DNA of 13,891 bases from Deltaproteobacteria bacterium (GTDB lineage Bacteria > SAR324 > NAC60-12): positions 1 to 13,891 of the forward strand of contig PBZZ01000123.1 of NCBI GenBank assembly GCA_002730365.1, given 5' to 3'. Each line of letters starts with the position of its first letter. Position 1 is the first letter of the stretch. Below the pieces are notes generated by a model. The model worked only from the letters and a program-made list of their open reading frames with translations, searched no databases and was not told where the DNA came from. Shown here in pieces: positions 1-13,837 of this stretch. The translations under genes and the position numbers were made by a program.

Positions 1-618
1 AATGTAAGAGTTATTACAGTAGGTAATCCATGTAATACCAATGCACTAATCGCCATGAACAATGCCCCAAAAATTGGTGTAGATCGCTGGTTTGCTATGA
101 CTGCATTGGATGAAAATCGAGCCAAAAGTCAGCTTGCCCAAAAGGCTAGAGTTTTAACTCGTGAGGTCAGCAATGTTGCTATTTGGGGAAATCATAGCGC
201 GACCCAATATCCTGATTTTTACAATGCACTGATTCAGGGGCAGCCAGCTACTGATGTGATTACTGATCATGAATGGCTGAAAGGTGAATTCATTAGTGTT
301 GTTCAACAACGTGGAGCAGCGATCATCAACGCTAGAGGGGCATCTTCAGCAGCATCAGCAGCCAACGCTGCTCTAGATACAATCATGCGTCTGGAAAAGC
401 CCACTCCAGCAGGAGATTGGTTCAGTGCAGCGGTTCCCAGCGATGGAAGTTACGGAATTCCGGATGGTTTACTCTTCAGCTACCCACTGCGGAGCAATGG
501 AGAAAGCTATGAAATTGTTCAGGGCGTTGAATTGAATGATTTCGCGCTTGGTAAGCTAGATATCACTCGTAAAGAGTTAGAGGAAGAAAGAGATGCTGTT
601 AAGAGTATGCTTAAATGA
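1..618 (+). CDS. mdh: Malate dehydrogenase, C-terminal part (5' end outside window)
   Basis: NAD(P)-dependent oxidation of malate to oxaloacetate in the TCA cycle, cytoplasmic. The reading frame is open from base 1, so the N-terminal Rossmann half lies upstream and about 205 codons are visible. The frame opens with the [16 protein letters not shown] segment typical of the MDH type 2 (cytosolic-like) family, continues with LDENRAK, which carries a substrate-binding arginine, and then [13 protein letters not shown], whose histidine (codon at 193-195) is the proton-accepting catalytic residue of the family. The C-terminal part with [12 protein letters not shown] and a charged final helix is complete and ends in TGA. 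The ATG at 55 is internal and is not the start. sucC follows after 87 bases on the same strand, a common grouping of TCA genes. Identification is firm; cofactor preference cannot be judged because the dinucleotide-binding part is missing. Confidence 0.95.
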
Positions 619-705
619 ATTTAGTTCAACGGCAACTAACTCTTGCTTGCCTCCACTTGAATTATTAGGAAGATCAACAGTCGTTATTCCATTCTTAGAG
701 GACTG

Positions 706-1881
706 ATGAAAATACACGAGTATCAGGCAAAACTAATTTTAGCCAAATACGGCGTAACTGTACCCCGTGGAAAAGTAGCATCCACCTTGGATGAGGCGGT
801 GAAAGCCGCCGAAGAATTGGGAACTGAGATCTGTGTGGTGAAGGCGCAGATTCATGCAGGCGGACGTGGAAAAGGTGGTGGTGTTAAGGTTTCAAAAGGT
901 TTGGATGCTCTGCGAACCAATGCAGAGCAGATTATTGGGATGCAATTGGTTACTCATCAGACTGGGCCCAAGGGGCAGCAAGTCAAAAGGGTCCTTGTCG
1001 AAGAAGGGATGGACATCAAGAAAGAACTTTATGTCTCATTGCTGGTTGATCGGGGTTCTCAGCAAGTGGTGATGCTGGCTTCCACAGAAGGAGGGATGGA
1101 CATTGAGGAGGTTGCGGCGAACACCCCTGAAAAAATTCTTAAAGTTGGCATTGATCCGACAATTGGAATGAGGCCCTACCAAGCTACCGAGTTGGCGTAT
1201 GGTTTAGAGATTGACAAGATCAATCCTAAACTGATTAGACCCGCAGTAGCTCTCTTACAAGGTCTCTATGAGACCTTTGCGAATGAAGACTGCTCATTGG
1301 TTGAAATCAATCCTTTGGTGCTCACTGGTGATGGCCGGGTCGTTGCCTTGGATTCGAAGATCACAATCGATGATAATGCTTTATTCCGACACAAGGATAC
1401 GCTTGAATTGAGGGATCTTGACGAAGAGGATCCTGCTGAAACGGAAGCCTCAGAAAACGACCTCAATTACATTCGATTGGACGGCTCTATTGGATGTATG
1501 GTTAATGGTGCCGGTCTCGCCATGGGCACAATGGACATCATTAAGGCTTGTGGGGGTGAACCAGCCAATTTTCTTGATGTAGGGGGGGGGAGTACCCAGG
1601 AAAGAGTTGAATTAGCATTTCGATTGATTTCCAGCGATCCACATGTAAAGTGCATCTTGATCAACATTTTTGGAGGGATTGTAAGGTGTGATATGGTCGC
1701 TGCAGGTGTCGTCGCTGCGATAAAAAATGTTGACCTAAAGGTGCCGGTTGTGGTCCGTTTGGAGGGAACTAATGCTGCAGAAGCACATCAAATCGTTAAT
1801 GATTCAAGTCTGGGTAGTCGCCTCCAAATGGCAGATGGTTTAAGAGACGCTGCTGAAAAAGCAGTTGCCGCTGTTGCCTGA
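706..1881 (+). CDS. sucC: Succinyl-CoA synthetase (ADP/GDP-forming) subunit beta
   Basis: Beta subunit of the succinyl-CoA synthetase heteromer, which makes ATP or GTP from succinyl-CoA in the TCA cycle. The product has 391 residues, close to the E. coli length of 388. The N-terminal ATP-grasp domain starts with the family signature [17 protein letters not shown] and has the glycine-rich nucleotide loop GGRGKGGG at residues 52-59. The metal-binding segment LVEINPLV follows near residue 200. The C-terminal ligase domain has [16 protein letters not shown] and [10 protein letters not shown]. An AGAGGA Shine-Dalgarno site lies at 697-702, rather close to the ATG. sucD begins 32 bases after the stop, so the two subunits are co-transcribed. 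The codons for VGGGS create a run of nine G at 1582-1590; the frame is intact through it. Confidence 0.97.
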
Positions 1882-1913
1882 TCACCACCTCAAATGAGTA
1901 TTGAAAGGAAAGT

Positions 1914-2786
1914 ATGACAGTCCTCGTCAACAGCGGAACGCGAGTCTTGGTTCAGGGAATCACTGGCTCCCAAGGGCAATTGCATACCCGTGGTTGTAGG
2001 GATTATGGAACCAATATTGTCAGTGGAGTGACCCCCGGCAAGGGTGGGCAAGATTTTGAAGGCGTTCCAATTTTCAACACTGTGAAACAGGCGGTCGAGG
2101 CTACAGAAGCGGATGCATCCATTATTTTTGTTCCACCTCCGTTTGCCGCAGACGCTATTATTGAGGCTGCTGCAGTTAATATCCCACTGATTGTGGCCAT
2201 TACCGAAGGAGTGCCTGTCCAAGATATGGTGAGAGCCGTAAGCTATGTAAAACGCCAGGGGGTCAGATTGATTGGGCCCAACTGTCCAGGAGTGATTACC
2301 CCAGGAGAATGTAAAATCGGCATTATGCCAGGAAGTATCCACCAGCCTGGTAAAATTGGTGTTGTCTCCCGTTCTGGAACTTTGACTTACGAAGCTGTAG
2401 GTCAACTCAGTGGGGTAGGTTTAGGTCAGAGCACTTGTATCGGAATTGGAGGAGACCCTGTTAATGGTACAAATTTTATTGATTGTCTACGGATGTTTCA
2501 GGATGATCCCGGGACAGAGGCAATCGTGATGATTGGAGAGATTGGCGGGGACGCTGAAGAACAGGCAGCTGCCTTCGTCAAAGAATATGTGACCAAGCCA
2601 ATTGTCAGCTTCATCGCAGGGCAAACGGCCCCTCCTGGACGAAGGATGGGTCATGCTGGTGCCATCATTTCCGGGGGTAAAGGTACGGCCCCCGAAAAAA
2701 TGGCTGCGCTGCAAGACGCAGGGATTTATGTGGTACCAACGCCTGCTGATATTGGCGAGAAAATGGTTGAGGTTCTGAAAATATAA
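1914..2786 (+). CDS. sucD: Succinyl-CoA synthetase subunit alpha
   Basis: Alpha subunit of succinyl-CoA synthetase, carrying the CoA site and the phosphorylated histidine. The product is 290 residues, essentially the E. coli length. The CoA-binding Rossmann motif GITGSQG is at residues 15-21. [20 protein letters not shown] lies at about 121-140. The active-site His247 is in [16 protein letters not shown], matching His246 of the E. coli enzyme. AAAGGAA just upstream (1904-1910) is the ribosome binding site. The gene follows sucC directly, and a hairpin terminator begins about ten bases after its stop. The last codons contain a ten-base segment complementary to the left arm of that terminator. 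Confidence 0.97.
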
Positions 2787-2889: not shown

Positions 2890-5800
2890 TTAATTTGGCG
2901 TTATTGACTCCATCACAAACAGTAGATCACCCTGATTTACGGTCTGCTGATCTTCTGCCAGAACTCGTGTGATCCGGAATTGCTGATCCCCAGGGTAGAC
3001 CGATTTCCCGTCTAAAGTTTTGAATGAGTTCAGGGAAATCTCATTGAAAACTTTCATGGATTCTAGCAAGCAGAGTGGAGTCTGTAAATTAATGACACTG
3101 CCTTCTTCCACTAATGCGGGAGTCTCTGGAGAAGGAGACCGATAAAAGCCTCCCATTTGTGGAGAAAGAATTTTCCACTCTTTCGAATTTTCGAAACGAA
3201 CACTGCACTCATCAAGTGAAGTTGCAGCCCCCCCAGATTCCAGCTTAGATTCCTTGATTAGCTCTTGAGGATTGATCCTTGAAAATAGCCCCTTCAGATA
3301 GCGGGTATCAAAATTCCCTACCTGGAAATCCTGATCCTGCAAAATTCTCTTCGCCAATACCAGATTTGTGGAAATGCCATGAATTTTCACTCTACTTAGG
3401 TAATCTAGTAGCAGTTCAATTGCTTCTTTTCGGTCTTCACCCCAGGCAATGATTTGGGCAACTAAAGAGTCGTAGAAAGGCGGAACCATAGAGCCATTGG
3501 TGACAGCTTTAATAACTCGGATGTTTTCTTCGGCAGGAAAGTAGGCTTCAGTAACTCTACCTGGATCTGGTACGAAACGAAGGAAACCCGAAGAGTCTAA
3601 ATCCACTCTTTCAGCATTAATTCGAAGCTCCATTGCATGGCCATGTGTACGGATCTTCAAGTTTTCAAGGCTATTGCCTTCCGCTACTGAAAACTGTTGA
3701 TTGACCAAGTCCACCCCAGTGACCATTTCAGAGACTGGGTGTTCCACCTGTAGACGCGTATTCATCTCCATGAAGTAGATTTTTTGCTCTCCCAGATCGT
3801 AGATAAATTCAACAGTACCGGCTCCAACATAATCAATTTCATCAATCAATTTCCTAGAGTATTTGAAAAGTTGATCTTGAATTTTCTGTGGTAGATCAAA
3901 TGCACTCTCTTCAATGAGTTTCTGATAATTTCGTTGGACTGAACAATCTCGAATTCCTAGCAAATGAGAAGTACCTTTAAGGTCTCGAAGAACTTGGACT
4001 TCCAAGTGTCTCAATGAGCGGATGAACTTTTCCAAATACAAATCACCGTTACCAAAGGCATTTAGCGCTTCCTTCGACATCCGAATAAACATCGGTTCCA
4101 ACTGACCTGGCTGTTCAACAACTGCTATGCCTTTCCCACCCCCACCATGGGCGGCCTTGATCAGCACTGGATATCCAATCTCCTCCGCTACGTTGGAAGC
4201 CTCAGATGAATTTGCCAATGCACCTTCACTACCTGGAACAACAGGAATCTTAAGCCTCTTTGCAGTATTGATCGCATTAGATTTGTTTCCCATTAGATCC
4301 ATGTTATCAGAGCGTGGTCCAATAAAATTCAGACCATGTTCTCGGCAAATGCGGGCATATTGGGGTGATTCTGAGAGGAAGCCAATGCCTGGATGAATGG
4401 CGTCTACTCCCTCAATCTCAGCAATTCTGATTACACTCATCGCATTCAAATAGCTTTCTTGAGGAGTGTTTCCACCAAGGCAAACCAGCCGATCGTTTTC
4501 CCGAAGCAATTGAGCTGGGTAGCTCTCCATATCTGGATCAGATTGGACGAGGACGACTTCTAGGCCATAGTCCTCAGAAGCTTGGATCAATCTTTGAGCA
4601 GTACATCCTCTAGCATGAACGAGGACTCTTTTGATGTCGCTTTGCATCAACTCAGATTTTTCAAGGGATTCAACTTCCTGATCTAGCTGCGTAGAGAGGT
4701 TATACTCACCCGTCAGTGTCCTCGAAATCACTTCCTGAATTGAAAGCTTTGGCATTGGAATACTGGGGTCAATCTGGCGCAAAGCGTGATCAATTTGCTC
4801 ATCAAATGGATTTTCCACCAGGCCATCCATTGTTCCGTCTTTTTGGCTCAGGTAGTTTGCGAGTGTGGATGATGCTGGAAGGTGACTCTCAACAACAAGT
4901 TGCCCTGCGAAAGGGATTTGGGCTCCTGAAAGATAGTAGGTTTTCACCAATAGATGAGTTACGAAACTTGCTTGAGCACCTCCGACGCAGTCTCTGAATC
5001 CAAAGCAAATCACCGGAAGATCATGGTCTTTGACAAAGCGTGTCAGTCGATCGTTCATCGTTGCCATGGAGAAGAGGGATCCTGCCCCCTCCTTGGTTTG
5101 CATACCTGCTGAAGAAATGAAAAAGATCACAGGAAGGTTGCGCTGGGCGCACTCATCCAGCAGAAGACAAACCTTCTCGCAGCTTGCCATGTCAAAGGCA
5201 CCAGCCTGAAAACGAGTGTTGCTCAGGACCAAACCGACCTTAGTTGTCGCTCTGTTATCTGTGAAATTAGCAATACCTGCAACTACTCCACATGGGGCGA
5301 TCCCACTGTCAAGAGCTTGCTCAATGGCTTGGCGAAAGCCTGGAAAATTGACGGGATTTGCGGTGATCTTTTCTGCGTTAAGCTCTTTGAAGTTAGCAAA
5401 ATACTTGTCAAGAATTTGCTTCGGTTCAATGTGATTCTTCTTATAATCTCTTAACAGATTCTGAATAAGCAGATCTTTATATGCTTGATCCAATCGATTC
5501 CAGAAGTCTTTGATTCCGATGTTTCGAGGAGTGATCTTGCCCTGAAACTTACTCTCACCAAGTTGAGCTTTATAAAGCGAAGGTAGCAATCCAGAGAAAT
5601 AGTAGCGCACAACCCCAAACAAAGGTGGAGACATCCTCGGATAGACAATTCTCTTCCAGCCACTTATAGTAGCCATCACTGCGTCACAGTTCTTTTGCGC
5701 TATGAACTGGGCGAGCCACTTGAAGAAGCTCTGTCGCACCCAATCACCCTCAAGCTGAAGTTCCATCTTTTCAAATTCCTTCAAGGCTATGTTGAAAGAA

Positions 5801-7440
5801 TTTTCAAAAAGCTTCTCTACTGATTGCTGTGAAATGTGATTTGTCCCTTTCAATTCACCTGCAATCATGGGGAGGCTTTCAATCACTCCATCGTAAAGCA
5901 TGTCAAAGAGTAGGATGTTCTGGAAGTTTTGCTGCAAACTTTGGTTCACCTCGGGTACAAGCAGAACGTCTAGTAGTGTGGGATTTTCATGGATCTCGGA
6001 AAGCGTTGCTTCCTGAAGAAAATCATGAAGTTGAATCATGTTCTCGCGGGTGCTGTCTTTCCAAAAATTATAAAGATAGATCAACACTTCCAGGGTTAAT
6101 TCTTCCAGTGCCTTCTCAAAGTTGTCCTTTGGATCCCCTACAAAAAAAGCGAAGAGTTTCGTTCTTTCTACATCTCGTTCTGCTTTAGTCTCGAGGAACC
6201 TTTGGTAGCGTTTGTTCAACTCCTCTTGGTAGCGAAGTTCTATAGGAGCCTGAAGCCACTTCTTGAATTTTTCTTGCCGCTCCTGCTCGATCCTTTCCGT
6301 TAAAGTGCCAGTTGGGGTCTTGGCAGTCTTACTGCTGAGTCTAGAGTAATTTTTAAGTGATTCACTTTGGATTTTTTGACGCATCTTTAGCCCACGCATG
6401 AAGCGATAGGCTGAACCGAAAACGTTTAGAGTTCCTGTAGGAGGCTTGTGAGTTCTCCGATTTACGACGATCTGGAGTTCACTCGGATTGAGATAATGTC
6501 CAATGTTTTCTTTGTAGTGATCAAAAAGAAATGAGTTTTCTTTCAGGAAAAGACGAGCGTTTTGCTCTGTTATTTCAATTCCACTGAGTATCGCTTCCAG
6601 TAGATTTGAAATCTTTCCAGGCTGATCTAACGAGAAATCAATAATCCCATCGAAATATCCGCTGGCGTAAAGCTCATAGGAGGAAACTCCCATAAATTTC
6701 GCACACTCTTGCCAGGACAGGTTGTACTTACGAGCTATGTTGCTCAATCCTTTCGGGTGAATTGTGTTAAATACTCCATCTTTGGTAGCAAGCAATACAT
6801 TTGTGGTTGCTAGTGGAATGGCTCCCCCACTGTATCCAGCCCCAAAAACAATACCTACGGTTGGCAACTGTAGATTCGCCATTTCGGCAATTAAAAAAGA
6901 GATACTGTGCGATTGATTGTCAAGATTGGCTTCAGCAGTGGCAACCGCTCCGGGGGTGTCAATAAAAGTCACCACTGGCATACCATGGATAGCAAAGAAC
7001 CCCAATTTATCTGCTGCTCGGCGATGATGTTTAGGATCCCAAGTTCCGTGTTGAGTCCTGTGGTCTTGAGCAACAAACCCAATTCTTCTTTTTAGAACAC
7101 CGATCTGAAATTCAACCTCAGCCAGATAGAGAGGCCCCTCAATCTCTTCTTGAATAAGGTTCCCTCCCAGTTGCTGAATAACTTCAACAGAACTGAGGCG
7201 CTTTTGGTTTTCAGACGGATTTACAACCCTTTGGATGTAACTGTCTACATCTAGTCGACGAAGCCACTGAATTTGTTCTTCAATACTCTCTTTGCTTAGT
7301 AATCCGGCTAATTTCACATCGTTAAAATACGATGGGCCTTTGCCCGGTAGCTGTGAAAGATCGTGGGACATTGCTTCTGCGCGTCGGAATGCCGAAAGAG
7401 GACGAGGTGTCTTTCGGGCAGACACGGGAGATTCAGGCAT
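2890..7440 (-). CDS. Single-chain multidomain acetyl-CoA carboxylase (CT-alpha / helical region / CT-beta / biotin carboxylase / biotinyl domain)
   Basis: Predicted to carboxylate acetyl-CoA to malonyl-CoA with ATP and bicarbonate, the first step of fatty acid synthesis; all catalytic parts are on one chain of 1516 residues. Domains in order: AccA-like carboxyltransferase (about 66-276; VTFIDTPGA, GAGYSGGAI); a charged, probably helical region I cannot assign (about 376-696); AccD-like carboxyltransferase (about 700-880; SSAGMQTKEGAGS, VGGAQASF) without the AccD Cys4 zinc finger; biotin carboxylase (about 935-1390; GGGGKG at 1099-1104, RDCSVQRNYQK with Lys1174, EMNTRLQVEHP with Glu1225, Arg1229 and Glu1233); biotinyl domain (about 1420-1512) with biotin Lys1463 in ESMKV. 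The usual NRGE of biotin carboxylase reads ARGC. The chosen ATG lies 25 bases after the parA-like stop and has no clear Shine-Dalgarno site. A TTG at 7542 would overlap that gene by 77 bases; an ATG at 7371 is also possible. Another acyl-CoA substrate cannot be excluded. Confidence 0.9.
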   Translation of the reverse strand: MPESPVSARKTPRPLSAFRRAEAMSHDLSQLPGKGPSYFNDVKLAGLLSKESIEEQIQWLRRLDVDSYIQRVVNPSENQKRLSSVEVIQQLGGNLIQEEIEGPLYLAEVEFQIGVLKRRIGFVAQDHRTQHGTWDPKHHRRAADKLGFFAIHGMPVVTFIDTPGAVATAEANLDNQSHSISFLIAEMANLQLPTVGIVFGAGYSGGAIPLATTNVLLATKDGVFNTIHPKGLSNIARKYNLSWQECAKFMGVSSYELYASGYFDGIIDFSLDQPGKISNLLEAILSGIEITEQNARLFLKENSFLFDHYKENIGHYLNPSELQIVVNRRTHKPPTGTLNVFGSAYRFMRGLKMRQKIQSESLKNYSRLSSKTAKTPTGTLTERIEQERQEKFKKWLQAPIELRYQEELNKRYQRFLETKAERDVERTKLFAFFVGDPKDNFEKALEELTLEVLIYLYNFWKDSTRENMIQLHDFLQEATLSEIHENPTLLDVLLVPEVNQSLQQNFQNILLFDMLYDGVIESLPMIAGELKGTNHISQQSVEKLFENSFNIALKEFEKMELQLEGDWVRQSFFKWLAQFIAQKNCDAVMATISGWKRIVYPRMSPPLFGVVRYYFSGLLPSLYKAQLGESKFQGKITPRNIGIKDFWNRLDQAYKDLLIQNLLRDYKKNHIEPKQILDKYFANFKELNAEKITANPVNFPGFRQAIEQALDSGIAPCGVVAGIANFTDNRATTKVGLVLSNTRFQAGAFDMASCEKVCLLLDECAQRNLPVIFFISSAGMQTKEGAGSLFSMATMNDRLTRFVKDHDLPVICFGFRDCVGGAQASFVTHLLVKTYYLSGAQIPFAGQLVVESHLPASSTLANYLSQKDGTMDGLVENPFDEQIDHALRQIDPSIPMPKLSIQEVISRTLTGEYNLSTQLDQEVESLEKSELMQSDIKRVLVHARGCTAQRLIQASEDYGLEVVLVQSDPDMESYPAQLLRENDRLVCLGGNTPQESYLNAMSVIRIAEIEGVDAIHPGIGFLSESPQYARICREHGLNFIGPRSDNMDLMGNKSNAINTAKRLKIPVVPGSEGALANSSEASNVAEEIGYPVLIKAAHGGGGKGIAVVEQPGQLEPMFIRMSKEALNAFGNGDLYLEKFIRSLRHLEVQVLRDLKGTSHLLGIRDCSVQRNYQKLIEESAFDLPQKIQDQLFKYSRKLIDEIDYVGAGTVEFIYDLGEQKIYFMEMNTRLQVEHPVSEMVTGVDLVNQQFSVAEGNSLENLKIRTHGHAMELRINAERVDLDSSGFLRFVPDPGRVTEAYFPAEENIRVIKAVTNGSMVPPFYDSLVAQIIAWGEDRKEAIELLLDYLSRVKIHGISTNLVLAKRILQDQDFQVGNFDTRYLKGLFSRINPQELIKESKLESGGAATSLDECSVRFENSKEWKILSPQMGGFYRSPSPETPALVEEGSVINLQTPLCLLESMKVFNEISLNSFKTLDGKSVYPGDQQFRITRVLAEDQQTVNQGDLLFVMESITPN

Positions 7441-7465: not shown

Positions 7466-8215
7466 TTACCAGGCCGGGAGGTGGGCTTTAACTTCTTGCC
7501 AGAGTTCCTGATAGGCCTGTGCTGATTTGCTGTTTTCTGCAAAGCAGCTTACTGGGGCTCGCTCTATTCCCATACGCTCAATTTCAGTTGAATATGGGAT
7601 ATTTGTTTTCAGAAAATTCGGATATTTGCGAGGCATTATTTGCATTAGGTCTCGATGCAATTGCTTGCGTCGATCAGCCATTGAGAAGAATACGAGCATC
7701 TTGAAATTTCGCAATTGCTTCTTGCGACGAAATTCCACCAATTGCTTTAGGGTTCTGAGGGAGAGAGAGGTGGGTATGACCGGTACTACAAGGACATTCG
7801 CAGCTTCAAAAATACTTTCTGATAGCAATGTCAGCCCTGGTGGGCAATCCAGAAAAACGTAGTCATACTCCCCTGCTAGAGGACTCAGCAATGTCTTGAG
7901 TCGCTCATTAGGCTTCTTTGTGTCGTCAAGCAGGAGGTCCATCGTCCGGTATGAAAAATCAGAAGGCAACAGATCGAGGTTTTCGTGGTCAGTTGCTTTG
8001 ATCAGATCAGCAAGATCATGACGACCTTTCAGCAAAGCCCTTGAACCTCCTTTGATTTTTGGCCGAACTCTAAAATAAAAGGTTGCTGCTCCCTGCGGAT
8101 CAAGATCCCAAATCAGTGTTCTTGCACCTTCATGTGCACTGTGAAAAGCCAAATTCACAGAGGTAGCGGTTTTTCCAACGCCACCTTTGATATTGTAAGA
8201 AGCCAAGATTTGCAT
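7466..8215 (-). CDS. ParA/MinD-family ATPase (SIMIBI P-loop NTPase)
   Basis: Cytoplasmic ATPase of the ParA superfamily, whose members move DNA, chemotaxis clusters, carboxysomes or other cargo along the nucleoid or membrane. The product has 249 residues. The deviant Walker A motif KGGVGKT at residues 10-16 carries the signature lysine (Lys10) needed for ATP-sandwich dimers. LIWDLDPQG follows at 34-42, and a Walker B-like strand YDYVFLDCPPGLTLLSESIFEAANVLVVP lies near the middle. No N-terminal DNA-binding domain is present, so it is the short (orphan or type Ib-like) form. No parB gene is visible. The ATG overlaps the stop of the upstream CHAD gene in TAATG, and a GAGGAG site at 8224-8229 lies inside that gene, so translation is coupled and the CHAD protein is the likely partner. 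The carboxylase gene follows. The cargo is not shown by the sequence. Confidence 0.88.
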   Translation of the reverse strand: MQILASYNIKGGVGKTATSVNLAFHSAHEGARTLIWDLDPQGAATFYFRVRPKIKGGSRALLKGRHDLADLIKATDHENLDLLPSDFSYRTMDLLLDDTKKPNERLKTLLSPLAGEYDYVFLDCPPGLTLLSESIFEAANVLVVPVIPTSLSLRTLKQLVEFRRKKQLRNFKMLVFFSMADRRKQLHRDLMQIMPRKYPNFLKTNIPYSTEIERMGIERAPVSCFAENSKSAQAYQELWQEVKAHLPAW

Positions 8216-8229
8216 TATTTCAACTCCTC
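8213..8229 (-). promoter_or_regulatory. TAATG overlap and Shine-Dalgarno of the ParA-like gene
   Basis: GAGGAG at 8224-8229 lies in the last codons of the CHAD gene. The TAA of that gene shares its final A with the ATG of the ATPase gene. This arrangement decides the ATPase start and implies translational coupling. Confidence 0.8.
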
Positions 8230-9792
8230 AACAACAATTGGCTGTTGAAAAAGAAGATTGATACGATTTTGGGTCCGCGTTGAAGCAAATCCATTAAAAC
8301 TTGCCCGGAACCGTTGACGCGCCTCAGCCTGTCGTTGGTTCAGGGTACTGACAAGCATCCCCATCGCAACTAAAGTTTGGGCTGGAACAGGTTGCTGCTT
8401 GGCAAGCATATCTCCAAAATTTTTTAGAGATTCCTGTTGAACTGAGCAATCATTGAATTGACCAAGATCTTCTTGCAGCGCTTTGAGAGGTTTCAGAATC
8501 CCTTGAAACTCTTTTACGGACCAAAGGCTCTCAAAAAACTCCAGTAAATATCGAAGTTTCTTACAACTCTTCCTTAGGTCATGGAGAGCTTCATCAGGAG
8601 AGTCGTGATCAATCGCTTTTCCCTCAGCTAAGCAGCGATGATAACTTCTAAGGAGTCTTTTTGATGCTGTCTTGCGAACTGCTGCTGCTGCTCCAGTAGT
8701 TGTAGAAGGAGTCTGATCGGTTAAAAAATCCTCCCAGTTCGAGCGAAACTTTTGATACCGCTGGGATTGAAGATCCTTGGCTAAAAGTTTTTGCTCTTTG
8801 GCATTTTCTGTCTGCAGAAGCTCTCGAAAAGCTTCAAGATCAGCTTGCTGTTCTTTAGGCAGTTGGGCTTGGTATGAATTGAAGTCAAGAAGATAAACAT
8901 CCAGGTCTCTAGTGGGCCCAGTGCGATCACTTAACCAAGCGAAGTCATCTCGAAAGTCTCGAATCTTTTCAGGTGGAAAAACCCCTTTCAGTTGGTTCAG
9001 CGCTGATCGGGCTCTACGGCAAGCAACCCTGAAATCATGCAGGAATTCGGTATCTGGTGCCTCGATCGTACCCTGATGGTTTAAATCCATCACCTTCGTG
9101 CTTGCACTTAGAATGGCTCGAAGAGCTTGATCAGTTCTGCCAAGGGGAGAAAGCTTTAATTTCGGTTTGGGCTGATAACTTCCAGGTTTCAGTTCCAATT
9201 TGCTGCAAACAATTTGGAAAAGATCCTCATTGAGTTCCTCTAGGCCTTCTTCACGACAAAACTGATTAATTTGCTGTGACGGTTTCGGATATCCACGGAA
9301 CGGGAGAATTACTAGACGGTTTTGGAGATCTTCTAGTTGATTTTCACGGAAGAGTTTTGTCGATTCTAGCAACACCCGAAGAACGGTCTTTTCGTCCTTA
9401 TTTTTCCATACTAACCACTGCTGGTTAACTGAAATTTGAAACAAACTTAAGAGAGCCCTTGGGTGAATAATGGACTCCAGTAATGGTCTAAGCGGTATCG
9501 AAGGAAGTTGATCAATTACAGATGCTTGAACAGGGGAACGCCCGCGCTGTAGGACTCGATTACCTGTTAAACTAAGCCAGCAAAGCCAAGATTCGTCTTC
9601 CACGTCAGTTCTGGTCTCTTGACGTAGTAACTGCTGATTTTTAAAGAGTCTTGAATCGAAAGTGTCGTAGTATACGTATTCCCAGAGTTGACTGGGGAAT
9701 TCAGTCAAAGGGAATTGTTCCTTAATTCGCTCTAGGAGGGCTTGAGCTTCAGTGAGTGAGGATATTTGATAGTGAGGTCTCTTCAATAACAT
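8215..9792 (-). CDS. CHAD-domain protein with degenerate CYTH-like N-terminal domain
   Basis: A 525-residue protein. The C-terminal part (about 215-505) is a CHAD domain: two helical repeats marked by LHDFRVACRRARSAL (His252) and LHDLRKSCKKLRYLLEFF (His404), plus RTGPTRDLDVYLLDF after the first. CHAD domains are known to bind inorganic polyphosphate and to localise to polyphosphate granules. The N-terminal 200 residues have the YYDTFDSRLF segment and following strands seen in CYTH (triphosphate tunnel) domains, but the ExExK signature expected at the start is absent, so triphosphatase activity is doubtful. I took the ATG at 9792, preceded by GGAAGA; a TTG one codon upstream is the alternative. 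The stop overlaps the ATPase start (TAATG), tying the two proteins in expression. No transmembrane or signal segment is seen. Confidence 0.86.
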   Translation of the reverse strand: MLLKRPHYQISSLTEAQALLERIKEQFPLTEFPSQLWEYVYYDTFDSRLFKNQQLLRQETRTDVEDESWLCWLSLTGNRVLQRGRSPVQASVIDQLPSIPLRPLLESIIHPRALLSLFQISVNQQWLVWKNKDEKTVLRVLLESTKLFRENQLEDLQNRLVILPFRGYPKPSQQINQFCREEGLEELNEDLFQIVCSKLELKPGSYQPKPKLKLSPLGRTDQALRAILSASTKVMDLNHQGTIEAPDTEFLHDFRVACRRARSALNQLKGVFPPEKIRDFRDDFAWLSDRTGPTRDLDVYLLDFNSYQAQLPKEQQADLEAFRELLQTENAKEQKLLAKDLQSQRYQKFRSNWEDFLTDQTPSTTTGAAAAVRKTASKRLLRSYHRCLAEGKAIDHDSPDEALHDLRKSCKKLRYLLEFFESLWSVKEFQGILKPLKALQEDLGQFNDCSVQQESLKNFGDMLAKQQPVPAQTLVAMGMLVSTLNQRQAEARQRFRASFNGFASTRTQNRINLLFQQPIVVEELK

Positions 9793-9990
9793 CAATCTTC
9801 CATTTAGTTGGTTTCACTCCATGAACCTTAGAGATTGAGTAATCTGGCAAGCAAAAATCTGTCCTAATCGAGGAGATCTTTTGAGACCTTTTAGCTGAAT
9901 TCAGGTTTGATAAGGGTCTTTTTTGAGAGTGAAATTTTCTAAGGAGGGGAAAGAGCGGATGGTTACGGCAGTACCTGAAGTAGAGATTTA
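9793..9990. other. Intergenic gap between the two minus-strand blocks
   Basis: This 198-base gap separates the SDR stop from the CHAD start and is the only sizeable space among the minus-strand genes. It is the likely place for a promoter of the CHAD-ParA-carboxylase block, but I could not find a convincing -35/-10 pair or a strong terminator. It contains AAGGAGG on the + strand at 9941-9947, ahead of a short ORF starting at 9959. Confidence 0.5.
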
Positions 9991-10749
9991 TCAGCCAAGG
10001 GGTCTTCCTCCGTCTAAATCCAGACGACAGCCATTCAAGCTCTTTAGATCTTGGAAAAGATGAAGGATCGCTTTTGCCACCTCCTTTGGTTGAGCAAAGT
10101 AGCCACTTGGTGTTCTGCCCAGTTGTTTTTCCCGCCATTCTGGATCCAATCCTTTGATAAATTCTGTTTCGACCACTCCTGGAGCAACAGAGACTACTCG
10201 AATTTTAGGTGCCAAAGCCCTTGCCAACGATCTGGTCATCGAGTCTAAGGCAGCTTTGGATGCACAATAGGCAACATTACTTCCCTCACCAGTTTTCCCT
10301 GCTATAGATGAAATGTTGACGATCAGCGCTTCAGGACTATTTTCTAGTAGCTTTCTAAATGATCGAATTGTTGAAAAAGAACCTCGCCAGTTGACCTGAA
10401 AAATTTGATCAATCAACTCATCATCTAGGCCTTCCATGTCCTGATGAGAAACAAATCGGGTTATTCCGGCGCAATTCACCAGTAAGTCTAGCTGGTGAGT
10501 TTTTTTAGCTATGGTTAAAGCAAGTTTATCAATCTGATTAGAATCACTTACATCAAGTTGGAAACCCTGATGTTCAGATCCTGCGAGTTCATTTTCGAGT
10601 TGCTGCGCCTCATTGAACTTCGATCGGTAGGTGAAAAGTACTTGGAAGTTATTCAACGCCAAAGTAAGGCAGATTGCTCTACCAATTCCGCCTACACCAC
10701 CTGTAATCAGGACTGTTGGTTGATTAGATGAATTCTGAGTTGGTTTCAT
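9991..10749 (-). CDS. Short-chain dehydrogenase/reductase (SDR), FabG-like
   Basis: Classical NAD(P)(H)-dependent SDR oxidoreductase of 252 residues, the usual length. The cofactor motif TGGVGGIG is at 16-23 and the NCAG motif at 92-95. The catalytic set is Asn120, Ser147 or Ser148 in NISSIAG, Tyr161 and Lys165 in YCASK. APGVVETEF near 189-197 and a C-terminal LDGG are typical of FabG-like members. A basic residue follows the second strand (YRSK), which slightly favours NADPH. It starts 24 bases after the methyltransferase-like gene ends, so it is probably the last gene of the distal operon. The start ATG has no clear Shine-Dalgarno site, so it may depend on coupling to the gene before it. 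The substrate is unknown; the context argues for a role in the same pathway rather than in fatty acid synthesis. Confidence 0.92.
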   Translation of the reverse strand: MKPTQNSSNQPTVLITGGVGGIGRAICLTLALNNFQVLFTYRSKFNEAQQLENELAGSEHQGFQLDVSDSNQIDKLALTIAKKTHQLDLLVNCAGITRFVSHQDMEGLDDELIDQIFQVNWRGSFSTIRSFRKLLENSPEALIVNISSIAGKTGEGSNVAYCASKAALDSMTRSLARALAPKIRVVSVAPGVVETEFIKGLDPEWREKQLGRTPSGYFAQPKEVAKAILHLFQDLKSLNGCRLDLDGGRPLG

Positions 10750-10773
10750 AATAAATAATTCAGGGCAATCATT

Positions 10774-11895
10774 TCAGACTAAACTGGCTCCTTCTGACAA
10801 GGATCTTAGTTTTGCGTAAGCAATTTCAGGATCGACCGCACCAAAGCCTGCAAAAGTTCCAAATCCACAATCCGTCCCTGCGACAACTCTTTCCCTACCC
10901 AGAAAGTTCACAAATCTCTCAAGTCTTTGCGCAATCAATCTTGGATGTTCGACAAAGTTGGTTGTGGTATCCACAACCCCGGGGACCAGTATTTTATCGT
11001 CAGGAATTTGAGCAGATTTCTCTTCAAAAACTATCCACTCATGACCATGTCTTGGATTGGCATTTTCGAATAGAACATATTGGGCTTTGCTTGACATTAG
11101 CACATCAAAGACTTTCTCCATAGCGATGTCGCAGTGATGAGGCCCTTCGTAATTTCCCCAACAGATGTGAAGACGAATTTTTTCAGCAGGTAATCCCTCT
11201 AAGGTAGAGTTGAGCACCTCCATATGAAGTCTTGCGAGATCAAGAAATTCATCATCAGACTTCTCTGTAAAAAGCATATGTCGAGACAAGGCCAGATCTG
11301 GACAGTCTAGTTGCAGTGAAAGTCCAGAAGAAATGATGGCTTGATATTCTGTTTTCAGTGCTTCTCCCAAGGCGATCAAATAGCTCTCATGGTCTCGGTA
11401 ATATTGGTTTGGTAAGAAGAGAGCAATCACTCCAGGGCTTGCCGCATTCATAAACCCTTGGGCTACAGAATTAGAAGCCATTGCAGCTTGTAAGTGCTTG
11501 ATGTCTGTTTGAAGATCGTGGGAATCCTTAGGGCTGATTGGTCCCACACAGCAGGGTCTAGAATATTGAGGGGTACCGCCGCTTCTGGCTAAACGTTCGA
11601 GAAAGCTTGGGTAGTCTTTCAAATCGGCTGGAGGTTGGCGCGGACTGTCGCCTGAGAAGCCGTAATAACGATCTTTAACATAAGTTGCATAGGAAATTTT
11701 AGAGGTTTCACCATCGCTGACAATCGTCACCCCAGCTTTTTGTTGTAGTCGAACAGTTTGAGCCACTTCTTCTGCCATGATCCTATCAAATTCCACCCGA
11801 TCCCAAGGTTCGTCTTTTTCTCTTGCAAAAATTTGGTCGACCACCCTCTGCCTGCGAGGGAGTGAGCCTACATGGGTTACAGCTAATCCAGACAT
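10774..11895 (-). CDS. MetE C-terminal-like zinc methyltransferase (cobalamin-independent methionine synthase II family)
   Basis: A 373-residue protein matching only the catalytic C-terminal barrel of cobalamin-independent methionine synthase (MetE, about 750 residues). It begins with the family motif THVGSLPR. The four expected zinc ligands are all present: His243 and Cys245 in LHICWGN, Glu277 in LFENANPRHG, and Cys343 in GTDCGFGTF. Proteins of this stand-alone type include methionine synthases that use simple methyl donors and epoxyalkane:coenzyme M transferase, so the reaction is probably alkyl transfer to a thiol; the substrate is unknown. The start was set at the ATG preceded by TAAGGAG, which overlaps the stop of the cupin gene. 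A longer frame to 12006 would run 101 bases into the cupin gene and reads as non-homologous sequence. It lies between a cupin and an SDR gene in a tight operon, which suggests a dedicated pathway rather than general methionine synthesis. Confidence 0.87.
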   Translation of the reverse strand: MSGLAVTHVGSLPRRQRVVDQIFAREKDEPWDRVEFDRIMAEEVAQTVRLQQKAGVTIVSDGETSKISYATYVKDRYYGFSGDSPRQPPADLKDYPSFLERLARSGGTPQYSRPCCVGPISPKDSHDLQTDIKHLQAAMASNSVAQGFMNAASPGVIALFLPNQYYRDHESYLIALGEALKTEYQAIISSGLSLQLDCPDLALSRHMLFTEKSDDEFLDLARLHMEVLNSTLEGLPAEKIRLHICWGNYEGPHHCDIAMEKVFDVLMSSKAQYVLFENANPRHGHEWIVFEEKSAQIPDDKILVPGVVDTTTNFVEHPRLIAQRLERFVNFLGRERVVAGTDCGFGTFAGFGAVDPEIAYAKLRSLSEGASLV

Positions 11896-11901
11896 ATCTT
11901 T

Positions 11902-11907
11902 CTCCTT
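11902..11907 (-). promoter_or_regulatory. Shine-Dalgarno site deciding the start of the MetE-like gene
   Basis: AAGGAG lies six bases upstream of the ATG at 11895 and overlaps the TAA stop of the cupin gene. It supports the shorter start and suggests coupled translation of cupin and methyltransferase. Confidence 0.85.
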
Positions 11908-12829
11908 ACAAGTATTTAGTGGGACCAGCTGGATCAGAAGTGGGGGTGGCCAAAAAAACTTCACAAGCTGTGGAAAACTCAATTGTACTGAAGTCCCCTG
12001 CATCAAGATAAACTACATCTCCTTTCTCGATAAGCTGATCTCCAATTTGAAAACTCCCCTCGTTACAGATCAACACAGTGGGACTTGAATCCCCCAATTC
12101 AATAGTCTCAATCCCCGAAATCCGAAGGATTTCAAATCCAGGCATTTCACGGATTGCTGCTTTGTCTGAAGTGCCAAGAATAAGGCTGCTACTTTCAGAT
12201 TTTCTCGCGAGAACGCGATTTGGGTCTTCAATATTGTTTTGGTCAAATGCTTCCAATTCAGCTCCTTCCAGGGGTTTGCGTGGGACTATTCCATCAGGAA
12301 TTGATTCACCATTGTGTGTATCAATCAAGAGTCCATTCTCAAGCAGCACCAAACCATGCGCCTTAGCAACTTCAATGACTTGTGGGGCCCATAATACTCC
12401 TCCCCCAGAGTCGTTCCCCCCGAGTACGGCGAACATAAATCCATAGCCATTTGGATTGGATTCATTAAGTTCAGTGATGTTTTCAAAACCACGAAACATA
12501 TGCGTTGGAAGACTTATCACATCACCTGGATCCAGAACAACTTCGCCTTTGTCACCGTACAGGCCCCAAAAAAATCTCCACTTTCCAGAGTGGATGATGA
12601 ATACCTCAGCGGTCCGATGGCTGTGCAAGGAGTTTGTACAACCTGCGGGTTGTGCAGCTGCCCCAATATTGAAACCGGGATTTTTGCTGAGATGAACATG
12701 CTGATCGGGTGACTCTGAAACCCCAGCGCCAATGATGGTGTAATTTTCTTTCTGATCAGATCCTGGAGTATGGGCATCTATGAAGGCAGTGCGACAGGGG
12801 ATCAATTCATTGAAGCGAACAATATCCAT
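11906..12829 (-). CDS. Two-domain cupin protein
   Basis: A 307-residue protein with two cupin beta-barrels. The N-terminal barrel (about 50-150) has the classic metal site: His69, His71 and Glu75 in HSHRTAEVFIIHSG, and His110 in DPGDVISLPTHMFRGFEN. It probably binds Fe, Mn or Zn. The C-terminal barrel (about 215-300; ICNEGSFQIGDQLIEKGDVVYLDAGD) keeps the fold pattern but has none of the metal-binding histidines, so it may be structural. Bicupins of this shape include dioxygenases, isomerases and decarboxylases; which one this is cannot be told. An AGGAA site at 12836-12840 sits six bases before the ATG. The stop is only 10 bases from the methyltransferase start, so the two are made together. 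Confidence 0.83.
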   Translation of the reverse strand: MDIVRFNELIPCRTAFIDAHTPGSDQKENYTIIGAGVSESPDQHVHLSKNPGFNIGAAAQPAGCTNSLHSHRTAEVFIIHSGKWRFFWGLYGDKGEVVLDPGDVISLPTHMFRGFENITELNESNPNGYGFMFAVLGGNDSGGGVLWAPQVIEVAKAHGLVLLENGLLIDTHNGESIPDGIVPRKPLEGAELEAFDQNNIEDPNRVLARKSESSSLILGTSDKAAIREMPGFEILRISGIETIELGDSSPTVLICNEGSFQIGDQLIEKGDVVYLDAGDFSTIEFSTACEVFLATPTSDPAGPTKYL

Positions 12830-12862
12830 CAGAAATTCCTGTCCAAAAGGAGTTAGAAGAAC

Positions 12863-13831
12863 TCAAAATTTAGAAAAAATTTGTTGCCAAATTGCTAGTT
12901 CGTCTAGCAAAACCCATTCACGTAAAATTTTTCCTCTGCGTAATTCTGCGTGACTGATTCCCAAAAGATGAAGTGGATTGCCTCTCGGTTCACCATATCG
13001 GCCTCTTCCTTCATGCTGTCCAGTTGCAGTCCAGCGCAAAGCGATTCTCTCTGGTTCTTTTGGATCTTCGCGATTAATCAAGTGATCAGCTGTAAACTTT
13101 ACCTGACTTAAACTGGCTCTAAGCCCCAACCAGAAATCGGTAATTTTGTCCCAGCCCTGAAGAGTTATCCCCCCTGGAGCGTAAATTTGTGCAGCCCTGT
13201 CGTAGCTCTCTTTTACCCAGCCAAAAGCGGATTCATCAAACAAATTTCTATAGCCTTGGACATAATGCTTAGCTGAATCTCTGTCGGATAAGCGAATTCC
13301 GTCAGTTTTGGGCCGATTTTCAAGACTATGAAAGTGAATGGGTTCCTGTCCTGATTCAGATCTTGCTTCTGCCAGTGTAAGCGCAAATTCCTGTAGCGGC
13401 AGACCGATATCGCCCAGAATTGCGGCATGATCTCTTACTAGCCATTCATCGTAAATCTGATTTTTGTAGACAGCACAGTCAGCAATCGTCCTAACACCAA
13501 TTCTTGCCCCGGTTCCTCTACCGAAGGTCCCTTCTCCAAAGTGTGTCATGGTTGAGAAGATGCGATGAGAAGAGTAGAAATAGTCTGTCTGGTCTTCGGA
13601 CCAGATGACATCTTCACCCAGCAGTTGACGGTCGGGAAACTGATTCAACGTTTCTAGGGTAGATTGGATTACTGCTTCCACATCAAAAGTAATGCCGGCT
13701 GGTGTCTCTACCCGACAATCTGCAGTATAGTATTTGCGAATGTCTTCGACGTGTCTCTCTTCCCAAATTCTCTCCGTGATCTTTAAAATAAAATCTGTCA
13801 GATCAGCAAATTCCAATTCTGGTGCCGACAT
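12863..13831 (-). CDS. Tandem SnoaL-like (NTF2-fold) protein
   Basis: A 322-residue cytoplasmic protein made of two SnoaL-like/NTF2-fold units. The first (about 8-150) shows an initial helix pair with IWEERHVEDIRKYYTADCRVETPAG and a later strand pattern ending in YDEWLVRDHAAIL. The second (about 185-320) repeats it: YRNLFDESAFGWVKESYDRAAQIYAPGGITLQG, ending in REWVLLDELAIWQQI. Members of this fold act as cyclases, hydrolases, isomerases or binding proteins for small organic molecules. I saw no diagnostic catalytic set, so no reaction is assigned. The ATG at 13831 is chosen because GAGGGAGG lies six bases upstream; a GTG at 13837 is the alternative start. It is the first visible gene of the distal operon and is followed after 33 bases by the cupin gene. 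Confidence 0.8.
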   Translation of the reverse strand: MSAPELEFADLTDFILKITERIWEERHVEDIRKYYTADCRVETPAGITFDVEAVIQSTLETLNQFPDRQLLGEDVIWSEDQTDYFYSSHRIFSTMTHFGEGTFGRGTGARIGVRTIADCAVYKNQIYDEWLVRDHAAILGDIGLPLQEFALTLAEARSESGQEPIHFHSLENRPKTDGIRLSDRDSAKHYVQGYRNLFDESAFGWVKESYDRAAQIYAPGGITLQGWDKITDFWLGLRASLSQVKFTADHLINREDPKEPERIALRWTATGQHEGRGRYGEPRGNPLHLLGISHAELRRGKILREWVLLDELAIWQQIFSKF

Positions 13832-13837
13832 CAGCAC

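Follow-up and report, generated by a model that had tools for sequence, protein, structure and literature searches.

A minus-strand gene at positions 2890 to 7440 of a contig from a Deltaproteobacteria bacterium of SAR324, a marine lineage (GCA_002730365.1, PBZZ01000123.1), carries all parts of an acetyl-CoA carboxylase (ACC) in one chain. The whole contig, 13,891 nucleotides long, was analysed and is referred to here as the window. The open frame terminates at 2890 and is unbroken through all four ACC parts, namely the two halves of the carboxyltransferase (CT), the biotin carboxylase (BC) and the biotin carboxyl carrier protein (BCCP), which lie as follows:

2890..7440, minus strand: accADCB (accS-type) gene, predicted single-chain acetyl-CoA carboxylase of 1516 amino acids (aa)
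6637..7089, minus strand: AccA-like (CT alpha) core, residues 118-268, from Pfam ACCA and Carboxyl_trans and the E. coli AccA alignment
4711..5397, minus strand: AccD-like (CT beta) half, spanning residues 682-876 in the profile match and reaching about 910 in the fold match
3289..4635, minus strand: BC domain, residues 936-1384, with GGGGKG and EMNTRLQVEHP
2893..3171, minus strand: BCCP domain, residues 1424-1516, with the biotin lysine K1463 in LESMKV

The mechanical open reading frame is longer, giving a 1550-aa reading from a TTG at 7542 that falls within the upstream parA-like gene. The start is likely the ATG at 7440, which sits 25 bases past the stop of that gene and is preferred because the resulting 1516 aa equal the length of P0001, the closest database protein among the matches listed (98% identity to the window protein). 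Of 31 loci from separate records, 24 keep a frame open for 1453 codons or more (one of the 24, L003, stops at the record end), and the closest locus, L004, shows 93% DNA identity across 13.3 kb of the window. As for the remaining seven, L024, L025, L028 and L031 hold a partial protein at record ends, and L029 and L030 (Legionellaceae) match the BC domain only, at 39-40%. In L027 (genome G009), which lies on a 606 kb contig, the fused gene is broken into short frames of 297 and 539 aa, which may reflect sequencing errors or true splitting.

The Pfam profiles ACCA (E 6e-24), Biotin_carb_N, CPSase_L_D2, Biotin_carb_C and Biotin_lipoyl all match the window protein and pass their cut-offs. Pairwise comparison with the E. 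coli subunits places accA at residues 128-267 (31%), accD at 744-878 (27%), accC at 936-1383 (40%) and accB at 1424-1511 (32%), which gives the order A, D, C, B. By fold, the AccA-like match is wider (about residues 54-371), and YSGGA at residues 203-207 of its core is invariant across a 45-row alignment. The AccD pair is the weakest: one BLAST run listed it at E 2e-7, and another, run with a tighter cut-off, did not list it. The NCBIfam accD profile aligns to residues 716-910 in the 1550-aa reading with E 2e-11 and 43.6 bits, well under its curated cut-off of 317. A fold search with the modelled CT half matched CT alpha chains as well as CT beta chains; the AccD-like assignment is therefore taken as settled, the weak AccD pair being backed by the profile match together with the fold matches to CT beta chains. 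Pfam, the accD profile, the E. coli comparison and the fold search agree with the original prediction, made from the letters of the window, of AccA-like, AccD-like, BC and biotinyl segments in this order within one frame, and speak against its caveat that the CT segments might not be AccA- and AccD-like. A length-limited search for split ancestors, with the CT half standing alone, gave 213 proteins; many among the 120 listed are named 'partial', a result that speaks neither for nor against a stable split form.

From among the matches listed, 231 relatives were fetched, and the 112 of at least 1490 aa were used for motif counts. Within EMNTR, the E, N and R are conserved in 112 of 112, as are the GGGGKG ATP loop of BC and the biotin lysine; the window protein has all of them, its catalytic motifs being intact as had been proposed. 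At residue 1172 (about 3925-3927), which corresponds to E. coli His236, the window protein has Tyr, and the 112 relatives have N in 72, Y in 33, F and K in 3 each and H in 1. Past the biotin motif, 52-71 residues remain before the C-terminus in the 77 of 113 sequences with a listed length, versus 38 in E. coli AccB; of the others, 32 fall outside the pattern used and four have no listed length, and part of the excess may be a C-terminal tail. Aligned pairwise with E. coli AccB, the window protein has a 14-residue insertion after this motif. A cysteine check found no CxxC anywhere in the window protein, and the CxxC pairs of E. coli AccD, which form a zinc ribbon, thus lack a counterpart. Its helical linker gave no match in Pfam; in a fold search with the linker alone, 9kkm was the only confident match, and the ACC central domain was not among the listed matches. 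In four relatives of 1625-1650 aa (P0096, P0098, P0114 and P0118), the linker is longer by 120-123 residues, inserted at window-protein position 486.

Searching the PDB by sequence retrieved 9kkm/9w4a, 'Acetyl-CoA carboxylase multifunctional enzyme AccADCB' (1517 aa, 1502 bits), the alignment covering the 1550-aa reading from residue 42 to residue 1546. According to the fold search, 9kkm is a holoenzyme dimer from Shewanella oneidensis, carries a point mutation and has a November 2025 release date; a literature search confined to one paper collection found no publication on this structure. By species, name and length, 9kkm is AccS (SO_0840), a protein of 1517 aa described as an 'acetyl-CoA carboxylase multifunctional enzyme' and listed as the one-protein ACC of S. 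oneidensis, in which AccABCD homologs are reported as not found and AccS as standing in their place (PMC4793157). A further study describes the AccS domain order as unlike that of eukaryotic enzymes, reports that the LysR-type regulator AccR activates AccS, and adds that growth of an accR mutant is rescued by E. coli ACC genes (PMC11602165). The name accADCB also appears among fatty-acid genes of Berkiella, in a passage that leaves unsaid whether one gene is meant. AccS and the window protein share full-length homology, the helical linker included, near-identical length (1517 vs 1516 aa), one chain ordered AccA, AccD, BC and BCCP, and the fold of the CT half and linker; they differ in sequence (46% identity over the modelled CT half, 34% in the linker) and in the upstream neighbour, which is the same-strand parA-like gene in the window and the divergent accR in Shewanella. 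Relatives among the matches listed bear the names Planctomycetes, Lentisphaerae, Thalassolituus, Bermanella, Psychromonas and Shewanella.

The window protein itself shows the architecture, the conserved motifs, homology over its full length and a matching fold, and these point to the gene being, very probably, the SAR324-type version of the bacterial single-chain carboxylase AccADCB (AccS), with its activity predicted from sequence. We infer substrate, carrier movement, dimer state and physiological role for the window protein as follows. The BC domain would carboxylate the biotin on K1463 using ATP and bicarbonate; the carrier domain would next shift to the carboxyltransferase formed by the AccA-like and AccD-like halves, where acetyl-CoA would be converted to malonyl-CoA, feeding fatty-acid synthesis. 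The enzyme is probably a homodimer, as in its Shewanella relative, and would substitute for separate accA, accB, accC and accD genes.

The last point was approached with an AccA profile survey of 52 SAR324-phylum genomes, in which omitted matches are weaker than the listed ones, near E 8e-5. Fused-type AccA (79.8-101 bits) occurs in 39 of them, in frames of at least 1453 aa in 33 and in shorter frames, assigned by score only, in six; canonical AccA (412.8-477.2 bits, frames of 313-341 aa) occurs in seven, and no genome of the 52 has both. None of the 39 genomes with the fused type, whose completeness is not stated, showed canonical AccA. No accD match reached the cut-off in nine of the surveyed genomes, a soft test because just 6 of 14 controls passed that cut-off. 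A search with the linker sequence matched 5 of 369 genomes from the class (Gammaproteobacteria) to which a Legionella-titled record belongs, and 5 of 288 from the phylum of a Lentisphaeria-titled record, that genome counted; nine of these ten have fused AccA only. The counts suggest that the fused form replaces the four-protein enzyme in the SAR324 lineage. The proposed look for separate acc genes was made in relatives.

Several points weigh against this replacement. Six of the 52 genomes (G011, G033 and G045-G048) have neither AccA type and give weaker carboxyltransferase-like matches only; G222, from the gammaproteobacterial class sample, carries the fused enzyme alongside a canonical AccA (485 bits); the check for separate genes covered only accA, in 52 genomes, and accD, in nine; and S. 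oneidensis itself is described as having an extra separate AccB homolog, SO_0511 (PMC4793157). A more far-reaching proposal, that AccADCB is the sole acetyl-CoA carboxylase of SAR324 and that the linker replaces the AccD zinc ribbon and sets the pairing of the CT halves, so that the enzyme would be assembled and regulated differently from its E. coli counterpart, is a tentative one that may well not hold.

Among competing explanations, the one that survives best, itself improbable, is that the window enzyme serves another acyl-CoA (propionyl- or long-chain) and acetyl-CoA carboxylation is done elsewhere. SAR324-type genomes do hold further carboxyltransferase-like frames of about 540-590 aa, and another bacterial single-chain carboxylase type is reported to favour long-chain acyl-CoA, palmitoyl-CoA being preferred over acetyl-CoA by Km (PMC6491548). 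Yet the CT halves are of AccA/AccD type, and the homology runs end to end with AccS, which supports growth and fatty-acid synthesis in Shewanella. Moreover, canonical AccA accompanies the fused type in none of its 39 SAR324 carriers and in only one of the ten others, G222.

Eukaryotic and mycobacterial enzymes begin with BC, as presumably does the bacterial single-chain long-chain acyl-CoA carboxylase type of 5fif, whose CT domain is a weaker fold match than AccA chains. In eukaryotic and actinobacterial multidomain ACCs, the order is BC, BCCP and then a CT with its AccD-like half before the AccA-like half. The window protein shares with eukaryotic ACC and the actinobacterial SACE_4237 a single multidomain chain with an identical set of activities, and could on that ground be a rearranged copy of them; this is very unlikely, as its CT comes first with the halves in A-D order, BC and BCCP are C-terminal, and its AccA half scores better in the fold search against free AccA than against other CTs. 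The confident match of the linker to 9kkm only also tells in this direction, and by itself excludes nothing. SACE_4237 is described as homodimeric and as homologous end to end to eukaryotic ACC, central region included (PMC6491548), and both protomers of fungal ACC as contributing to the CT active site (PMC4833862). In the window protein, the two CT halves may form a common active site either inside one chain or between the chains of a dimer.

Compared with heteromeric E. coli-type ACC, whose four parts lie on separate polypeptides and are all recognisable here in the order A, D, C, B, the window protein is one chain with an added helical linker, lacks the AccD-like CxxC pair, carries the insertion past the biotin motif and has Tyr (Asn in most relatives) for BC His236. 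That four such separate genes were fused by an assembly or sequencing error, an alternative raised with the original prediction, is ruled out by the 24 of 31 loci with long stop-free frames, the 112 long relatives and the solved Shewanella structure of the same architecture, leaving it scarcely conceivable.

The genes beside accADCB are the following:

7466-9795, minus strand: parA-like ATPase gene, with a CHAD-domain gene preceding it, 25 bases upstream of accADCB
55-2786, plus strand: the C-terminal half of malate dehydrogenase (MDH) at the window edge, followed by SucC- and SucD-like genes, convergent to accADCB
9991-13837, minus strand: SDR oxidoreductase, cobalamin-independent methionine-synthase-like protein, cupin and SnoaL-like protein in a row

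The SucC and SucD labels come from sequence, and the SnoaL-like protein has two matched stretches. CHAD, ParA and MDH/SucC/SucD flank the gene in close relatives alone (L001-L005, L031 and, as short loci, L036-L040, which come from five genomes that also yielded L001-L005) and were absent at E 1e-8 from the other loci, several of which have short flanks. A conserved neighbourhood as part of the system was therefore rejected, the linkage being confined to close relatives.

The original observation is sound, its interpretation is supported in part, and its list of known forms is incomplete: the order does set this protein apart from eukaryotic ACC, but architecture, order, role and structure are already on record through Shewanella AccS, whose same design, studied genetically and structurally, pre-empts the discovery of a new architecture. 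What is new here is a divergent member in another lineage, together with counts that suggest replacement of the four-protein enzyme there. The 39 of 52 sampled SAR324-phylum genomes with the fused form and no canonical AccA limit how far four separate proteins can be taken as the rule in bacteria, and annotation models built on single subunits may report accA and accD as missing in SAR324, where the predicted product of the fused enzyme, malonyl-CoA, would be the entry to fatty acids.
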